Shown here: in pieces, positions 22,436 to 28,938 of the stretch
How the letters are laid out: each line of letters opens with the position of its first letter
How positions within the stretch are numbered: the stretch's first letter is position 1
Source: a virus
IMG/VR virus record: IMGVR_UViG_3300032093_000622
Location: 1-29,181 of that record
Direction: 5' to 3' (one strand)
DNA: 29,181 nucleotides
Made by a program: the position numbers and the translations under genes
Notes under the pieces: generated by a model
Seen by the model: the letters and a program-made list of their open reading frames with translations, nothing else
Database searches by the model: none
Told to the model about the DNA's origin: nothing

Positions 22436-23176
22436 TCAGGCTACCGGTGGCTCCCATAGCAGGGGAGTGCTGCTCGTCAAGTCGTACTCGCCTGCGCGAA
22501 GGATGCGAGCACAGCGTGCTTGCTGGATCACGTAGGGCAGGCCATAGCCCTTCTTCTCAAACGCCTTAAGCGTCTGATCCCACATCTCCACCTCTGTTGT
22601 GCAGCCAGCCAACAGCCGATCAGCGCCAACCGCGCCGATGCCAGGGCAGCCCGGGTAGTTGTCGCTGGTGTCACCCGTCAACACCTGGCTGTAGAAGCTG
22701 CGATCGGCCTGCAATCTGCTGACCTCGAGGATCTCCCCGTCACGCAGATGCAGCCCCGGCAAGGTGAGCATGTCCTTGTCGATGCTGACGATCACGTCGC
22801 CCTGTTCATAGAGAACGCCGAGCACGTCATCGCCTTCGATGTCGGGCAGCCGCTTCACCTGCCAGCCCCTTGCCGGGGCCGCCTTGTCCACCCACTCCAC
22901 AAGTTGCCGGTAGCCGGCGGGCTTGCGGTACTTCTTGCGGTTCGCCTTGTACTGGGGCCAGACGCCATAGCGAAAGCTCACCCGATCCGAGAACACGAGC
23001 ACGGGATCGTGATCGGGAAGGGTGTCGCGGATCTCGCCGATGGCGTCCTGGAACGTGGCCTGCGCATCGCCATGCCGGCAGAGATAGGTCCAGTCATCGG
23101 GCGCCCATTCGGCCTCGTACTCACTGGCCGCGGCGGCACGGTAGAGATACACCTCGGTGTCGATCAAGGCCTTCAT
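22436..23176 (-). CDS. 5'-3' exonuclease (T7 gp6-like, PIN/FEN fold)
   Basis: A 246-residue exonuclease; T7 gp6 is about 300 residues. Metal-binding acidic residues of the FEN family are in place: D6 at the start, E114/D116/D117 in IEGDDVLG, D133 and D135 in SIDKDMLTLPG, and D169/D172 in TGDTSDNYPGCPGIG, followed by the helix-hairpin-helix-like GIGAVGADRLL. The basic YKANRKKYRKP motif (residues about 76-86) is also typical. In T7 it removes RNA primers and helps degrade host DNA. Here it is kept although no phage DNA polymerase or primase is encoded in the usual neighbouring position. ATGA overlap with the preceding small gene. Confidence 0.94.
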   Translation of the reverse strand: MKALIDTEVYLYRAAAASEYEAEWAPDDWTYLCRHGDAQATFQDAIGEIRDTLPDHDPVLVFSDRVSFRYGVWPQYKANRKKYRKPAGYRQLVEWVDKAAPARGWQVKRLPDIEGDDVLGVLYEQGDVIVSIDKDMLTLPGLHLRDGEILEVSRLQADRSFYSQVLTGDTSDNYPGCPGIGAVGADRLLAGCTTEVEMWDQTLKAFEKKGYGLPYVIQQARCARILRAGEYDLTSSTPLLWEPPVA

Positions 23177-23373
23177 TGCTCACACTCCCTGATCAGCCGA
23201 TCGGCCACCTCGTTAATGGCCAGGTGGCAGATGCGGGCTTGGCCTTCGTCTGGCGCCCAGCTGCGAACGCGCTGGCTGACCTCGAACACAACAGCCTTCA
23301 TCCTGCGGCGGTCGTCGATGCTGTATTCACCCAGGCTCCAGTAGAGCTCGGTCAGTTCATTGAGCAGGGTCAT
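23173..23373 (-). CDS. Small hypothetical protein (66 aa)
   Basis: A 66-residue, probably all-helical protein (MTLLNELTELYWSLGEYSID through LIRECEQ). It overlaps the upstream gene and the exonuclease by ATGA on both sides, which is good support that it is translated. Not recognised. Charged helices without a membrane segment or Cys cluster suggest a small cytoplasmic early protein, perhaps a host-takeover or exonuclease partner, but this is speculation from position. Confidence 0.6.
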   Translation of the reverse strand: MTLLNELTELYWSLGEYSIDDRRRMKAVVFEVSQRVRSWAPDEGQARICHLAINEVADRLIRECEQ

Positions 23374-23594
23374 TTGATCACCTCAGCAGTGCAATCGGGC
23401 CAGCGGTTTTTGCAATACAGCAAGGCCTTCGCCTCGCTTGGGGCAGGAATAGTCACGCGCATCAAGGGCATTGCCGGCTGCTTGACGTGCAACCGGAACA
23501 GCCGTGTTGATTCATCGGGCTGTGGCCGGCTAATGCCTGGCCCCAGGTTTGGCTCCACCCAGCCAGGTGGGATGTAGTTGGGGTTGAGTCCCAT
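23370..23594 (-). CDS. Small hypothetical protein (74 aa)
   Basis: Starts at the ATG at 23594, which forms TGATG with the preceding stop, rather than at the GTG immediately before it. The N-terminus is Pro/Asn-rich (MGLNPNYIPPGWVEPNLGPG). A beta-rich part follows (TRLFRLHVKQPAMPLMRVTI), then a helix and an ALLYCKNRWPDCTAEVIK end. The tail looks like a short domain that handles one residue or ligand, but I do not recognise the family. Coupled on both sides. Confidence 0.6.
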   Translation of the reverse strand: MGLNPNYIPPGWVEPNLGPGISRPQPDESTRLFRLHVKQPAMPLMRVTIPAPSEAKALLYCKNRWPDCTAEVIK

Positions 23595-23767
23595 CACTCA
23601 TCCTCCATTTCGATGATGTGTTCCAGGGCCCGGATGTATCCGTTCCAATAGCCCTGCGTGAAGCTGCCTTCCACGGTCTCGCCGTAATGACCCAGCGCCA
23701 TGTCCCTCAATCGAACAAGGGCGCGTCGGGAGACGTCGATTGGCTCTTCTCCTTGTCTTGTTGCCAT
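23594..23767 (-). CDS. Small hypothetical protein (57 aa)
   Basis: I chose the ATG at 23767 (MATRQGEEPIDVSRRALVRL), giving 57 residues. The longer in-frame version from 23869 has a Pro/Arg-rich, low-complexity N-terminus that looks like shadow translation of the preceding gene. The rest, ALGHYGETVEGSFTQGYWNG then YIRALEHIIEMEDE, is compact and helical. The start lies inside the upstream gene (61-bp overlap) with no clear ribosome-binding site, so the exact start is uncertain. Function unknown. Confidence 0.5.
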   Translation of the reverse strand: MATRQGEEPIDVSRRALVRLRDMALGHYGETVEGSFTQGYWNGYIRALEHIIEMEDE

Positions 23768-23928
23768 GGCTGTACGTTGCGGGGGTCGTGGATGTTGACG
23801 TAGCCGTATTTGCCAAGGAACACCATCAGGCTTCTGACCCTGCGAGAGACAACAGCGCCGCGGCGCCATGCCCCCTGGTAGTAACCCTTGACCTCCTGGC
23901 CGATCTCGTACTCGTGGGTCCAGCTCAT
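23707..23928 (-). CDS. Small protein with SH3/KOW-like beta barrel appearance (73 aa)
   Basis: Starts at the ATG at 23928, which forms ATGA with the preceding stop. The sequence EYEIGQEVKGYYQGAWRRGA followed by VVSRRVRSLMVFLGKYGYVN and a NVQPW end is the strand pattern of small SH3/Tudor-like barrels (G-x-x-V-x-G...W-x-x-G-x-V). The last 20 residues are a polar tail. It could bind protein or nucleic acid. The fold is inferred from pattern only and no partner is evident. Confidence 0.58.
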   Translation of the reverse strand: MSWTHEYEIGQEVKGYYQGAWRRGAVVSRRVRSLMVFLGKYGYVNIHDPRNVQPWQQDKEKSQSTSPDAPLFD

Positions 23929-24122
23929 CCGTGGTGCTTGCGAAAGGCCTCCATGTCCCTGAAGTCCATCTCCTGAAACTGCGGGTGCTGTGCCAGGAAT
24001 CCAGGGCTGGGCAAGATCACATCCCGCCCGCTCTTGTTGAACTGCAGGGTTGACCACTTGCCTGTAAGCAGGCCGCGTTCAAGGATTCCTTGCAGCTCGT
24101 GCTTGTCGATCAGCGGCTCCAT
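23925..24122 (-). CDS. Small hypothetical protein (65 aa)
   Basis: Starts at the ATG at 24122, forming TGATG with the preceding stop. Sequence MEPLIDKHELQGILERGLLT then GKWSTLQFNKSGRDVILPSP has a basic, Trp-containing strand region. The C-terminus is Phe/Met/His-rich (EMDFRDMEAFRKHHG). Not recognised. Tight coupling on both sides supports that it is a real gene of the early operon. Confidence 0.58.
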   Translation of the reverse strand: MEPLIDKHELQGILERGLLTGKWSTLQFNKSGRDVILPSPGFLAQHPQFQEMDFRDMEAFRKHHG

Positions 24123-24655
24123 CACTGGGCCTCGAGTCGAGCTGCCTCCTGCTGTGCCCACTGCAGGTAACTGTTCCACTTTTCCGGCGTGAGCGGGCTG
24201 TCTTCCTTGGCAGGCGGCAGCAGCGGATGCTCATTGCTCTCGAAGGGCACGTAAGCCTGCGAGTTGTGCGGGTCTGGGGCTGAGATCAGCGACCGGCGCG
24301 TCGTTGGCAGCTTCTCCAGCTGCCAGCCGGCAGGACGACAGAAGCTCGGCAGCTCCTCGCGGAAACCCCAGCTTCTATTAGCCATGCCGTTCTCTGTTCG
24401 ATAAAGCGGTGCCATCAATTCCTTCCAGGTGGGGTAACGCTTGAACGTGTTGGGCTCGAGGCCTTGAATCCATTGCTCTGCGGCCCACATGAATTGCGGC
24501 TCAGTGATCTCGGGGAACTCACTGGTGAAGCTGTGAAACTTCAGCCGACAAACGTGTGGGCTCCAGCGGTCGCTGTCTTTGATGCGCAGGTGGGCTGCGA
24601 TCATTTCGGCGACCACCAGAAATGTCTCGGCGGTCAGGCTGATTGGCTTGGCCAT
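24122..24655 (-). CDS. Hypothetical early protein (177 aa)
   Basis: A 177-residue protein with a helical N-terminus (ISLTAETFLVVAEMIAAHLR). A conserved-looking core follows, FPEITEPQFMWAAEQWIQG, then YPTWKELMAPLYRTENG and NRSWGFREELPSFCRPAGW. The C-terminal 60 residues are Pro/Ser-rich and end in a Gln/Ala helix. The Trp-rich core reminds me of uncharacterised proteins in cyanobacterial phages and prophages, but I cannot name a function. It follows a zinc-ribbon gene with a 22-bp overlap. Because no polymerase or helicase is encoded nearby, a role in recruiting host replication proteins is worth considering but has no direct support. Confidence 0.68.
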   Translation of the reverse strand: MAKPISLTAETFLVVAEMIAAHLRIKDSDRWSPHVCRLKFHSFTSEFPEITEPQFMWAAEQWIQGLEPNTFKRYPTWKELMAPLYRTENGMANRSWGFREELPSFCRPAGWQLEKLPTTRRSLISAPDPHNSQAYVPFESNEHPLLPPAKEDSPLTPEKWNSYLQWAQQEAARLEAQ

Positions 24656-25209
24656 TGCTCGAGCGCGGCAAGCATCCGCGGGTCTTGGGGCATGGGCCGG
24701 CCCAGGGCAGTGGGCTTGGCTAGCTCTTCTTTGAGGTACTCAGGCTTCAGTGCCTGCCAGCCGTGCTCAACACCAGCTGCGCACAAGGCAACCTGCTGCC
24801 ATTCGGGCAAGCGTGCGATGCGATTGCAGGTGGCAAGCCATGCCGCCTCTGTCCAGGTGGCATTGCCTTTGTGCTTTGAGCGGCGGCTCTCGTTCCACCA
24901 CTGCAACAGCAGCGGGGCAGCCTCCTCGCAGACACCATCGGGCACAGCGCTCATCTGCCAAGCGGGTGCAGCGGCTCGCTTAGCGGCTGTCCTTTCCTCT
25001 TCTTCCAGGTCAGGCACCGCCGCAAGAAACGGTGCAGGCTGGCCAGCTTCGATGTAGCCAACCGCCCGGCCAGCAAACACACAGACACGTTCAAGTGTCT
25101 GGAATGTTTTGCCGCAGCTTTGGCACAGCCTGATCCTGCGATCAGCCTCAGCGGCCGAGCGTGTTTCAGTGACGCGGCTTTTGTCGTTGCCGCAGTGAGG
25201 GCATTTCAT
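24634..25209 (-). CDS. NrdR-type zinc-ribbon protein with novel C-terminal region
   Basis: A 191-residue protein started at the ATG at 25209, which overlaps the previous stop as ATGA. An upstream in-frame start (25242) would add 11 unlikely residues. Residues 1-42 form a zinc ribbon, MKCPHCGNDKSRVTETR ... LCQSCGKTFQTLERV, with ligands C3, C6, C29 and C32, very like the N-terminal DNA-binding ribbon of the ribonucleotide-reductase repressor NrdR. The NrdR ATP-cone is absent. Instead there is a helical C-terminal part containing WWNESRRSKHKGNATWTEAA and then RIARLPEWQQVALCAAGVEH. Possible roles: sequence-specific DNA binding as a transcription or replication-initiation factor. A primase-type zinc domain is an alternative, but no primase catalytic region follows. 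Confidence 0.72.
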   Translation of the reverse strand: MKCPHCGNDKSRVTETRSAAEADRRIRLCQSCGKTFQTLERVCVFAGRAVGYIEAGQPAPFLAAVPDLEEEERTAAKRAAAPAWQMSAVPDGVCEEAAPLLLQWWNESRRSKHKGNATWTEAAWLATCNRIARLPEWQQVALCAAGVEHGWQALKPEYLKEELAKPTALGRPMPQDPRMLAALEQWPSQSA

Positions 25210-25406
25210 TCGCCTTCCCCCACATCTGCCCAGCTGCCACACCAGCTGTCGTGATAGACGGTTGGCCAGCGCGGATGAAAGCGCGTGCTGTATTCAGGCG
25301 GTTGGCAGCGGCACTGAAGAAAGTGCTGCCTCTCGTAAACAAAGTCGCGTGCGTATCTGCAGTTGCTGCAGCACTGCTCACGCAGCGGCGGATAACTGTT
25401 CGTCAT
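25206..25406 (-). CDS. Small cysteine-rich zinc-binding protein (66 aa)
   Basis: A 66-residue protein with Cys at 12, 13, 16, 32, 34 and 56 in the order C-C-x2-C ... C-x-C-x-P-P ... W-C-G. The pattern CSNCRY ... LQCRCQPPEYS ... SWCGSW is common among small phage and prophage metal-binding proteins with a rubredoxin- or knuckle-like appearance. It overlaps the resolvase gene end by 29 bp and the zinc-ribbon gene by ATGA. Function unknown. Confidence 0.7.
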   Translation of the reverse strand: MTNSYPPLREQCCSNCRYARDFVYERQHFLQCRCQPPEYSTRFHPRWPTVYHDSWCGSWADVGEGE

Positions 25407-25767
25407 TCCAGATGACCTTCAAGTGAATTGACTGGTTGTTCTTGGGTTGCTGCTGCCACTGCGCTTCGATTCGCTGCAGCACCGTCACCCGGTCATCGGC
25501 CCACACAATCCCGTTGCCGGCATCCATCACGGCGCCGGCCAAGTTGTCCAGGTCAGATGTTCCGGGCCCAAAGAAGGTGAGGTGCAGCGCCACCACCTGA
25601 CCCTTCTCCAGCGGTGGGACAGTCCACCACTCACTGAGGATTGCCTGAACGCTTTCAGCCCAGGTGCGGTACTTGGTGTCCTTGTAGGCAGAGCCTCGCC
25701 CAAAGCGAGGCCGTGCCTTGGGCTGCAGCGGCACCGGCAATACGAAGTCGGCGGTGCGCAACGCCAT
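25378..25767 (-). CDS. rusA: RusA-family Holliday-junction resolvase
   Basis: A 129-residue RusA-like endonuclease, close to the usual 120 residues. Visible features are the N-terminal PVPLQPKARPRFGR segment and the catalytic acidic cluster SDLDNLAGAVMDAGNGIVWADD, with D72, D74 and D91/D92 matching the D-x-D...D arrangement of RusA. It resolves four-way DNA junctions formed during recombination and concatemer processing. In T7 this step is done by the unrelated endonuclease I (gp3) encoded in the same position, so this is a non-homologous replacement. Its ATG overlaps the SSB stop as TGATG. Confidence 0.92.
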   Translation of the reverse strand: MALRTADFVLPVPLQPKARPRFGRGSAYKDTKYRTWAESVQAILSEWWTVPPLEKGQVVALHLTFFGPGTSDLDNLAGAVMDAGNGIVWADDRVTVLQRIEAQWQQQPKNNQSIHLKVIWNDEQLSAAA

Positions 25768-26453
25768 CAGAAGGGGATCTCCTCGTCATCGGCTTCAGCC
25801 AGCACCGCGGGAGCCTCCGCCGCAACCTGCTTGGCGCGAGCCCGCAGCTTGTCAGCCATGCTCATTTCGGCTGGCTCCTCTGTAGCGAACGGGGTCTGGG
25901 CGGCAGGTGTCTCGGCCACGTAGCCGTCTTCCTCGCCGAAGGCCGACGCTGCATCAACCCGCTCGTAAGCCACCAGGTCAATTACCTGCAGCGACTCGAG
26001 GGTGAGGCTGATGCCCTTGGCACCACTGCGCTTCTCGGTCCAACCCCAGGCCGAGAACGCCACCTTGACCTTGGAGCCGTTGCCGATCAGGCAGTCCTGA
26101 GGCCAGAGGTTCTTCTTGCTATCGACGATCACCGGCGGGGACATCAGGTTCCCCTTGGCGCTCATCTCGGTGCGCTTGAACCGGAAGCGGATCTTTCCGG
26201 TGGGGTTCTTGTCCTTGTCCATCTGATCGGCGAAAGGCCAGGCGTTCTTCGCTTGCTTGGCGCCGGGGCCGTTCACTTCGACGAACAGAAGTTCGATTTT
26301 TTCGATGAAAGCAATGGTCTCTGGGTCGGCCGGATCAAGGGCCAGCTCGATCGACCAAGCGCGAGGGTCGCCTTCCTCGTAGCCATCAGCGGGCTCGAGA
26401 ACTTTGGCCCACCAGGCTTCGCCAAGCGGGGAAACGTGGAGCTGTCGCGGCAT
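25767..26453 (-). CDS. Single-stranded DNA-binding protein (T7 gp2.5-like) with bacterial-SSB-like tail
   Basis: A 228-residue protein from the ATG at 26453 (MPRQLHVSPLGEAWWAKVLE); T7 gp2.5 is 232 residues. An in-frame GTG at 26492 would add 13 residues but lies inside a hairpin, so I prefer the ATG. Family-like segments are the WWAKVLEPADGYE start, WSIELALDPADPETIAFIEK, KNAWPFADQMDKDKN followed by an FRFKRTEM strand, and KVKVAFSAWGW near the end of the OB fold. A flexible linker leads to an acidic C-terminus, AEADDEEIPF. T7 gp2.5 has an acidic tail ending in Phe; here the last residues closely resemble the D-D-D-I-P-F tip of bacterial SSB. Encoded directly after RNA polymerase and coupled to the resolvase. 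Confidence 0.9.
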   Translation of the reverse strand: MPRQLHVSPLGEAWWAKVLEPADGYEEGDPRAWSIELALDPADPETIAFIEKIELLFVEVNGPGAKQAKNAWPFADQMDKDKNPTGKIRFRFKRTEMSAKGNLMSPPVIVDSKKNLWPQDCLIGNGSKVKVAFSAWGWTEKRSGAKGISLTLESLQVIDLVAYERVDAASAFGEEDGYVAETPAAQTPFATEEPAEMSMADKLRARAKQVAAEAPAVLAEADDEEIPF

Positions 26454-26526: not shown

Positions 26527-28938
26527 TCACGAGAAGCAATGTGGGTTCTGTCCGATCTCTCCGTGGCATAAGTCGCCCACCTGCGGCGGCGGTGGCAGGC
26601 TCTTAACCCCTGCAGCATCAGCGATCTGAGCCGACATCTCAGCCAGCCAGTCCGGTGCATACAACCCCCTGAGCTCATCGTGCAGGGTGTGATGCAGCCA
26701 GCCTGCGCGAGATGGAATTGTCGCAAAGCAGTCGTGATTGGTTAGGAGCTGCGCCCCTTGCTCTCCACTCTTCTCGATGACTAACTGGCACAGCGCCGCA
26801 TCAAACGAGTGGACCGTGTTGGCGGTCACCGCCCGGTTGGTACTGCGTGCTGACAGCTCTCCTTCTGTTGCCTCATCCGCCCACGTCTGCCACCGCCGCC
26901 GGCCATGGGCCAGGGTCGTGACAGTGGTGCGTGCATCCAGTGCATCGCCCAGCCGGATCGGCATCCCCATTGGGCTGGTCCACTGCACCGCCTTGCCCTC
27001 GGCCAGCACCGTCCTGGTCACGGTGCGCAGCCAGGTCTGCAGATCGAGGCAGCTCTTGAGCTCAGCCCCCAGCAGCACCCCCAGCTTGCGGGCCAGGTAG
27101 CGGGCCGGCGCCAGGTAGGCGAACTCCCACTGGTAGAGCTTGAGCCCGGCCTGCCGCTCCTCGAGCGCTGCCACCAGCCCCTCCACCACACCCAGGAACT
27201 GGGCGCCATAGATGGTCGTCATCACTGGGCCTTTGCACAGCGAGCGATCAACGCCGAACTCAAGCCAGAGCTGGGCCATGCGCTGCTCGCGCTCGGTGCC
27301 GTTGCTCAGATCCAGCCGCAGCAGCCGCTGCAGTTCGCCTGCGATGTGGGTGTAGAGATCGCGGTGGCTTTTGCCGGCGATGTTGGTCAGCTTGGCCAGC
27401 CTGCGATCACGCACCAGGGCAGACGCAATGCCAATGCCGCTGCAGGTTTGGTCGAACCGCACCGGTGTGGTGCAGCTGCTGCTCGGGTCAGCCACCTGCT
27501 GCGCAATGGCGCGGCACAACTGCAGGTACTGCCATGGATCCTTGGCATCACGCCACAGCTCAAGCCGATCCAGTGGCGCCTCTGCCGCTGCGCACATCTC
27601 GATCAGGTGATTGCGGCCCCACTCCAGCCGGGCCTGCCAGTTGCCTCGGATCCCCCAGTGACTGGCCGCACCTTTGAGCAGCCACTCAAGCGCCTCGACT
27701 GAGCAGGTCTCGCCGTGGCTGAAGTGAACGGCAGCCTTCTCCCAGTCCGGGCCCTGGTGGGTGGCGTAGCGGTTGGAGGTGTAGAGCCGGCCACGGAAAT
27801 CGCTGCAGTAGGCGAACCAGATCGGCATCCCAGCCACCTCCTCGCACTGCCGGATGGTCTGCTCAATCCGGTTGCGTTCTGCTGCGCCCTCGCAGCGGTC
27901 GCGCTGCGCCTTCAGGCGTTGTCGCTGGTAATCCTTGAAGGCCTCAGGCCCGAGCAACTCCTGTGGCCGCGCCGGATCCTCGAGCGGGTCGCGGGTGACA
28001 GGGAACAGCCCCCGGATGTTGTGATCCCAGGCGCAGCGCTGCAGCTCAACCATGCCCGGGTCGATGCGCAGCTCCTGCTGCTGCAGCTGGTTCACCGCCT
28101 TGAGCACTGGGGCCAGGGCGGCTGGTGTCAGGTGACCGAGGTCCAGCCCGGCCCTGCTGCGCACCAGCGGTTGCTTGTTGTCCAGGTGCCCGCCGCCGTG
28201 CATCCCCTCCCATGGCCGCGGCGGCACCAGCATTGGCAGTCGGCGTGCCTGGAAGGGCCGCGGCGGGTTGGCCTTGATCACCGCTTCAGCTGTTGCAGTT
28301 GGCCGCACGGTGCAGCGCAGCCGGCCATTGCGGCTGGTGGTGCCCACCTCCACCAGATCGGTGTTGCCCAGGATCACCTGCAGCAGCAGGTTGCCCACCT
28401 CCACCTTCTCTGTGTGTGTCCACCCGCTGCAGTCCAGCCGCAGCTGCTCGAGCACCTTGGTGTTGCTCAGCGCCTTTGCCCCTTTGCGTTTGCGGATCAG
28501 CCGCATCAGGTCAGGGCTGGCCTGTTCGATCCGTCCGGCCTTGAGCTCGTCCTGCAGGGCCTTGCCGATGACACCGGCCAGCCGGCGCTGCTCAGGGCGC
28601 TGACTGATCTGGTCGATCACCACTCCCAGGGCGATGGCAGCAATGGACCTTGGCCCTCGATTGGTGACGTGCAGCAGTAGTGGCCAGGCGGCGAAGTGCG
28701 GGCCCGGCTTGTTGGGGTTGGCCAGCAGCTCCTCGAGCAGCAGGCCCAGGGCCACGGTCACCTGCTCGGCGTACTGGGTGAAGAGGGCCCGGCCGTACTC
28801 AGTGACGCTCTCTTTGCCCTGCGCTTTGAGCTTGGCTCGGGCATTGATTGCATCCCATTTCGCCCGCTCTCTTTCCCTCTCCTCCCTCTGCTTCTGCAGT
28901 TTGTCCACAGGGGTGGACGCGGGATTTTTGGGTTTCAA
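26527..28938 (-). CDS. Single-subunit DNA-directed RNA polymerase (T7 gp1-like)
   Basis: An 803-residue T7-type RNA polymerase, somewhat shorter than T7 (883). Key motifs, numbered from the TTG at 28938: SDFRGRLYTSNRY (379-391); the motif A region VRFDQTCSGIG with catalytic D496; motif B RSLCKGPVMTTIYGAQ with K569 and Y577 (T7 K631 and Y639); and motif C NHDCFATIP with catalytic D736 (T7 D812, where the sequence is HDSFGT). NTVHSFDAA precedes it at about 707-715. The promoter-specificity loop region (about 670-700) is unlike T7, so promoters will differ. The start is uncertain: TTG at 28938 or GTG at residue 11, neither with a good ribosome-binding site. It should transcribe the middle and late genes to its left. 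Confidence 0.96.
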   Translation of the reverse strand: MKPKNPASTPVDKLQKQREERERERAKWDAINARAKLKAQGKESVTEYGRALFTQYAEQVTVALGLLLEELLANPNKPGPHFAAWPLLLHVTNRGPRSIAAIALGVVIDQISQRPEQRRLAGVIGKALQDELKAGRIEQASPDLMRLIRKRKGAKALSNTKVLEQLRLDCSGWTHTEKVEVGNLLLQVILGNTDLVEVGTTSRNGRLRCTVRPTATAEAVIKANPPRPFQARRLPMLVPPRPWEGMHGGGHLDNKQPLVRSRAGLDLGHLTPAALAPVLKAVNQLQQQELRIDPGMVELQRCAWDHNIRGLFPVTRDPLEDPARPQELLGPEAFKDYQRQRLKAQRDRCEGAAERNRIEQTIRQCEEVAGMPIWFAYCSDFRGRLYTSNRYATHQGPDWEKAAVHFSHGETCSVEALEWLLKGAASHWGIRGNWQARLEWGRNHLIEMCAAAEAPLDRLELWRDAKDPWQYLQLCRAIAQQVADPSSSCTTPVRFDQTCSGIGIASALVRDRRLAKLTNIAGKSHRDLYTHIAGELQRLLRLDLSNGTEREQRMAQLWLEFGVDRSLCKGPVMTTIYGAQFLGVVEGLVAALEERQAGLKLYQWEFAYLAPARYLARKLGVLLGAELKSCLDLQTWLRTVTRTVLAEGKAVQWTSPMGMPIRLGDALDARTTVTTLAHGRRRWQTWADEATEGELSARSTNRAVTANTVHSFDAALCQLVIEKSGEQGAQLLTNHDCFATIPSRAGWLHHTLHDELRGLYAPDWLAEMSAQIADAAGVKSLPPPPQVGDLCHGEIGQNPHCFS

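Follow-up and report, generated by a model that had tools for sequence, protein, structure and literature searches.

Gene order between RNA polymerase and exonuclease

The classic example of a self-sufficient, phage-encoded replisome is that of the T7-like phages. The virus record IMGVR_UViG_3300032093_000622 from IMG/VR (29,181 nt, analysed over its whole length and hereafter called the window) belongs to a large, overlooked T7-like group without DNA polymerase and primase-helicase. Our analysis centres on positions 22436-25767, the interval in which, according to the original prediction, such a phage would normally carry both genes. On the minus strand, the order runs from a T7-type RNA polymerase (RNAP) through a gp2.5-like single-stranded DNA-binding protein (SSB), a RusA-like Holliday junction resolvase, a Cys-rich open reading frame (ORF), a zinc-ribbon protein (ZnR), a conserved protein of 177 aa (p177) and five small ORFs to a T7 gp6-like 5'-3' exonuclease, downstream of which lie small MCFG-type ORFs and then the portal gene (Table 1). 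Profile searches detected no polymerase, helicase or primase domain in the interval, as had been predicted, no match to PF00476 (PolA) across the whole window, and no polymerase domain in the exonuclease itself. The Pfam and PHROG matches also bear out that RNAP, SSB, resolvase and exonuclease have been kept. The eight small genes noted earlier are indeed there; that they merely fill the space does not hold, since ZnR and p177 form a conserved pair in the position of the primase-helicase.

A single-subunit RNAP in the window, a T7-type large terminase in its complete relative G001, and portal, capsid and tail genes orthologous to annotated S-SRP02 genes place the virus among the Autographiviridae. 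More precisely, it is a member of an S-SRP02-like cluster: its RNAP is 67% identical to that of the cyanopodovirus S-SRP02 (a Synechococcus phage, MW822601), and nucleotide matches are colinear over most of the window. With T7 and Syn5 the lineage shares the order of RNAP, gp2.5-type SSB, endonuclease or resolvase and exonuclease, as well as the T7-type terminase; it differs from them in lacking gp4 and gp5, in having RusA as its resolvase and in an SSB tail that ends in IPF rather than DF. A T7-type autonomous replisome (gp5-type polymerase together with gp4-type primase-helicase) is thus not what we find here.

Table 1. Genes of the RNAP-to-exonuclease region of the window
Feature	Position	Strand	Length	Evidence and remarks
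T7-type RNA polymerase	26527..28938	-	803 aa	PF00940 E 3.3e-45; phrog_414 E 6e-127; PF14700 also over Pfam cut-off
gp2.5-like SSB	25767..26453	-		phrog_112 E 1.5e-24; Pfam match under cut-off; start placed from homologues, ORF itself open to 26492
RusA-like Holliday junction resolvase	25378..25767	-	129 aa	PF05866 E 3.9e-11, passes cut-off
Cys-rich ORF	25206..25406	-	66 aa	ORF only, no family match
ZnR, NrdR-type Zn ribbon with helical C-terminal domain	24634..25209	-	191 aa	PF22811 E 6e-11; ORF open to 25242
p177, conserved lineage-specific protein	24122..24655	-	177 aa	76 homologous IMG/VR loci
Small coupled ORF (MEPLIDKHEL...)	23925..24122	-		Orthologue in G003
Small ORF (MSWTHEYEIG...)	23707..23928	-		C-terminus ...SPDAPLFD; subclade orthologues share PLFD end
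Small ORF	23594..23869	-		ORF
Small ORF	23370..23597	-	75 aa	ORF
Small ORF	23173..23373	-	66 aa	ORF
5'-3' exonuclease (T7 gp6-like)	22436..23176	-	246 aa	PF02739 (N-terminal domain) E 1.3e-12, passes cut-off; phrog_107 E 1e-51

Two further observations concern the window itself. The PLFD end listed in Table 1 occurs in 11 of 65 loci and recalls sliding-clamp-binding motifs. Positions 1-2447, at the tail-fibre end, diverge from G001, with the remainder 91-92% identical, which suggests an exchange of fibres.

Polymerase and helicase genes across the lineage

The window is a linear 29.2 kb fragment of a genome of about 42 kb, and absence within it alone says little. We therefore relied on its relatives. 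G001 is complete, with overlapping ends and about 42.1 kb of unique sequence, and matches the window in colinear order over most of its length, at 91-92% nucleotide identity; it encodes an integrase, MarR, ArdC, a T7-type terminase, a glucosaminidase/C39 endolysin-like protein, a reverse transcriptase and structural genes. By profile search, neither PolA nor a DnaB-type helicase is present anywhere in the genomes of G001, S-SRP02 or the marine phage S38-C3. PolA was missing from all 8 IMG/VR relatives, from S-SRP02 and from three marine fosmid genomes, as well as from each of six additional contigs, and neither PolA nor DnaB_C was found in sixteen further p177-bearing contigs of 30-54 kb. Searches for PolB and Pol III alpha were equally empty in 28 genomes, 25 of them from the polymerase-less lineage. 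Among the controls, Syn5 and HTVC011P scored positive for PolA, and the MPP-C phage P-SCSP1c scored negative, in agreement with its publication. As far as profile searches reach, both enzymes are thus absent genome-wide in the relatives. DnaB_C was found only in S37-C6 and S31-C1, two phages in which p177 is missing and a TOPRIM-helicase occupies its slot.

An assembly deletion, which the original prediction had named as a possible cause, is excluded. Two contigs assembled independently from other metagenomes (L001 and L002) show 100% identity with the window over 12,652 and 7,511 bases, and both span the entire interval with no missing segment. L002, one of the six additional contigs mentioned above, also extends the window virus by 8.9 kb upstream, into genes that match the G001 integrase, MarR, ArdC and terminase; no PolA was found in that extension. 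The earlier suggestion that the replisome genes have moved outside the window is accordingly contradicted by complete or near-complete relatives (G001, S-SRP02, S38-C3) and by L002, and the same genomes, with other relatives, exclude a mere fragment effect.

The order RNAP-SSB-RusA-ZnR-p177-exonuclease recurs in the S-SRP02-like cyanopodoviruses S-SRP02 and uvMED S38-C3. A sister group, uvMED S37-C6 and S31-C1, belongs to the same polymerase-less clade and shares the RNAP-SSB-RusA start and a Zn ribbon in the slot, but carries TOPRIM and a DnaB-type helicase where the window lineage has p177, and its SSB tails are mixed. In S37-C6 and S31-C1, and at related loci (58 fetched), the TOPRIM-DnaB helicase mostly stands behind a short Zn ribbon, and no DNA polymerase was found in these loci. 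In a tree of exonucleases, a branch with 99% SH-aLRT separates helicase-bearing and p177-bearing phages, taken together, from the T7-like phages that have a polymerase. MPP-C groups with the polymerase-bearing phages in that tree, on a long branch that makes its placing unsure.

Loss of the polymerase as such had been published in 2022 for the MPP-C clade (P-SCSP1 and others), T7-like cyanophages for which primase/helicase is listed as core, and for which recruitment of host Pol III was proposed and a longer latent period described (PMC9860041). MPP-C thus resembles the window lineage in its missing polymerase gene and long latent period; unlike it, MPP-C has primase/helicase directly before the exonuclease and no ZnR-p177, and its SSB candidate ends in EEEF rather than [DE]IPF. 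The claim of a distinct strategy for a T7-like phage hence needs one correction: polymerase loss is not new, whereas the window lineage lacks both enzymes. In the open-licence papers that we searched, neither this double loss nor the ZnR-p177 replacement nor the SSB-tip pattern described below was found.

S-SRP02 is a lytic freshwater isolate with a latency of about 24 h, compared with 1-9 h for marine cyanopodoviruses; in the paper describing it, helicase and primase are not mentioned and the lack of a replisome goes unreported (PMC8790148). Its exonuclease orthologue (L017 22389-23129) is annotated as 'DNA polymerase I' and comprises only the 5'-3' exonuclease. The published tree was built on terminase, 'DNA polymerase' and capsid (PMC8790148); this ORF is likely to be the 'DNA polymerase' in question, because it is the only S-SRP02 ORF so annotated apart from p014. 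The latter, annotated 'DNA polymerase III beta subunit', was considered as a phage sliding clamp that might act as recruiter and was rejected, since searches with PF02768 and against PDB were empty. Genes of the p014 type (L017 10903-11607, L023 5919-6677, L032 17006-17860) match a RusA-like family and part of a processivity-factor family in PHROG equally well, and are missing from most relatives.

G001 shows two other features. A diversity-generating-type reverse transcriptase lies with a conserved 83-aa ORF near the tail genes (L023 12172-13391), as it does in G003 and G002, and a 46-nt leader repeat, 98% identical between its copies (L023 5484-5529 and 5877-5922), probably reflects the duplication of a regulatory region upstream of early genes.

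The ZnR-p177 pair, the SSB tail and a RepL-like protein

What has taken the place of the primase-helicase? Homologues of p177 are found at the IMG/VR loci counted in Table 1; among 50,697 public phage records, S-SRP02 and S38-C3 are the only two to have one. In 73 of 74 loci the gene immediately ahead of p177 is ZnR, the lone exception being a contig that starts at p177, and the two ORFs overlap in most loci (by 22 bp in the window). A search for relatives with a shared RNAP-SSB-RusA-zinc ribbon-exonuclease order, as had been proposed, recovered the full order including p177 in 54 of the 74 loci; the other 20 miss some genes, mostly at the end of the contig or of the stretch retrieved. Judged by gene order, a conserved and overlapping ZnR-p177 pair therefore occupies the primase-helicase position. 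The two proteins are not homologous to each other.

The AlphaFold2 model of p177 (pLDDT 84) has its only strong match in the viral structure library BFVD in its own homologue. Among the weak matches, those of phage origin and with a named function are G39P, five replisome organizers and one putative helicase; they suggest p177 as a candidate helicase loader or replisome organizer. As for ZnR (pLDDT 79), the Zn ribbon (PF22811) is certain. A role as an NrdR transcriptional repressor was rejected, there being a Zn ribbon only and no ATP-cone at E up to 10. Its structural matches in the viral library are mainly Zn-ribbon and helix-turn-helix proteins, with one DUF1376 protein, and the C-terminal half of one homologue weakly resembles the O-like initiator family phrog_678 (E 0.033), making ZnR a candidate initiator or adaptor. 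In genome searches, however, phrog_678 mostly matched a different gene near the terminase and not ZnR. That gene, which adjoins terL, encodes a separate winged helix-turn-helix (wHTH) protein with similarity to RepL. PF05732 (RepL) exceeds its 20.3-bit cut-off in 7 of 36 genomes, all 7 of the lineage; it reaches 15.9 bits in S-SRP02, under the cut-off, and exceeds it in none of Syn5, HTVC011P, P-SCSP1c and the helicase-bearing relatives. The wHTH protein is thus suggested as a RepL-like initiator candidate.

In bacteria, SSBs draw in their partners by means of a conserved C-terminal tip, which reads DDDIPF in Escherichia coli (PMC5872125). The window SSB ends in ADDEEIPF and so resembles this tip. 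A hydrophobic residue followed by PF closes 49 of 52 distinct SSBs of the lineage, even though the preceding linker varies widely; among polymerase-less, helicase-bearing relatives 8 of 33 SSBs end in PF, and of 68 SSBs encoded beside a phage DNA polymerase one has the hydrophobic-PF end and 64 have the DF of T7. By its sequence, then, the phage SSB carries the bacterial recruiting tip ([DE][IVML]PF). SSB-family genes in a Cyanobium metagenome-assembled genome (MAG) end in SEEEVPF and GDDDIPF. The host would be Synechococcus or Cyanobium, and the phage a virus of freshwater cyanobacteria, given the host of S-SRP02 and one Cyanobium MAG contig with the module. This 5.5 kb contig (L122), into whose MAG the phage module was binned, is in itself a weak host hint.

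Proposed replication with host enzymes

Reliance on the host replisome, one of the options left by the original prediction, fits these findings, and we infer that the phage draws on host DnaB, DnaG and Pol III. In our estimation, the S-SRP02-related cyanophage lineage, having lost both DNA polymerase and primase-helicase, probably relies on the replisome of the host to copy its genome. We envision a scenario whereby the RepL-like protein, ZnR, or both would mark the phage origin, p177 would bring or load host DnaB, and the SSB tail would dock those host proteins whose usual target is the SSB tip, PriA and DnaG being known partners of that tip in bacteria. The phage DNA would then be synthesised by the primase and Pol III of the host, the processing of primers, host DNA and branched products might fall to the phage exonuclease and RusA, and the phage RNAP would drive late transcription and perhaps origin firing. 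Such a dependence fits the 24 h latency of S-SRP02 and the longer latent period seen in MPP-C, both of which may also have other causes.

Overall, this would amount to recruitment of the host replisome in the style of SPP1 or lambda, within a T7-style genome. The likeness to SPP1 gp38-gp39-gp40 and lambda O-P lies in the proposed logic, an initiator and a loader steering the host replisome to phage DNA, and in overlapping genes for the two, as described for SPP1 genes 38, 39 and 40 (PMC6316719). SPP1 supplies its own DnaB-family helicase, gp40, unlike the window lineage, in which origin repeats were not found and p177 and G39P share no homology that can be detected by sequence. A more far-reaching version, which we put forward tentatively and rate just short of even, is that a globally distributed T7-like lineage dropped its entire replisome, exchanging the primase-helicase at once for a two-gene host-recruitment cassette (a Zn-ribbon initiator and a new helicase-loader family) alongside an SSB with a bacterial tip, and thereby combines T7-style transcription with SPP1- or lambda-style replication.

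Several results weigh against the proposed use of the host replisome. The similarities behind the loader and initiator roles are weak (E 1.6-5.5 for the named structural matches of p177); p177 has no match in PDB by sequence or fold and belongs to no Pfam or PHROG family, and its comparison by hhalign with gp49 of Listeria phage A118, one arbitrarily chosen phage replication-region protein, gave nothing. RepL, as a wHTH family, also matches 14 of 14 control genomes, over the cut-off in 3 only, and the window virus's own wHTH copy, in L002, has no Pfam match. A search for DnaA boxes and iterons as origin marks yielded none beyond chance-like repeats. On the tree, SSB tail and helicase loss provide one independent contrast only: because the helicase was lost in a single event, the tail counts are not independent evidence and speak for conservation, not repeated evolution. 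Finally, the pair cannot be universally needed, as the SSB of G006, which lacks ZnR and p177, still has the EIPF tail. In that genome (L029 3164-9190, with overlapping contig ends), a 421-aa protein and two reverse-strand ORFs replace ZnR and p177, and the SSB ends in EEEIPF; neither a helicase nor a polymerase was found there.

Conceivably, ZnR and p177 might have no part in replication and act instead in, for instance, host takeover or transcription, having come to lie in the slot by chance, with recruitment left to the SSB alone. The absence of both genes from G006 would be in line with this, as would the fact that the sole certain feature of ZnR is a Zn ribbon of the NrdR/TFIIS type. We nevertheless hold it to be rather unlikely, considering how strictly the pair is linked within the SSB-RusA-exonuclease module, that it takes the place of the primase-helicase, and that p177 bears a weak structural likeness to helicase loaders. 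Alternatively, host DNA polymerase I might be recruited instead of Pol III, with RNAP transcripts serving as primers in the manner of ColE1 or T7 origins, initially without a replicative helicase. T7 origins are transcription-primed, the phage has retained both an RNAP and a 5'-3' exonuclease, and Pol I has been raised for MPP-C (PMC9860041). Yet Pol I alone is poorly processive, and the type of SSB tip and the loader-like p177 point to a DnaB/PriA pathway, leaving this option improbable.

It is more improbable still that the phage encodes a polymerase or helicase too diverged for profile searches, an option that Cai et al. also left for MPP-C (PMC9860041). Many ORFs are without a family, but once the terminase, RNAP and structural genes are set aside, G001 has no unassigned ORF of 500 or more aa. 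The unassigned proteins conserved in the lineage, ZnR and p177 included, stay below 260 aa, which is not enough for a hexameric helicase or a processive polymerase, and the sole other nucleotide polymerase, the reverse transcriptase, is present in some relatives only. That the genes sit elsewhere in this phage, as an incomplete linear record might suggest, is barely conceivable, given the gene content of the L002 extension, the complete G001 without such genes and only about 4 kb of this virus unseen.

The lineage makes the replication of polymerase-less cyanophages directly testable in one isolate, S-SRP02, for which a misannotation ('DNA polymerase I') that was probably used in a published phylogeny can now be corrected. 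Surveys that use DNA polymerase as a marker miss these phages. A lineage with T7 RNAP and SSB and without polymerase, primase and helicase shows how the autonomy of a replisome can be given up.

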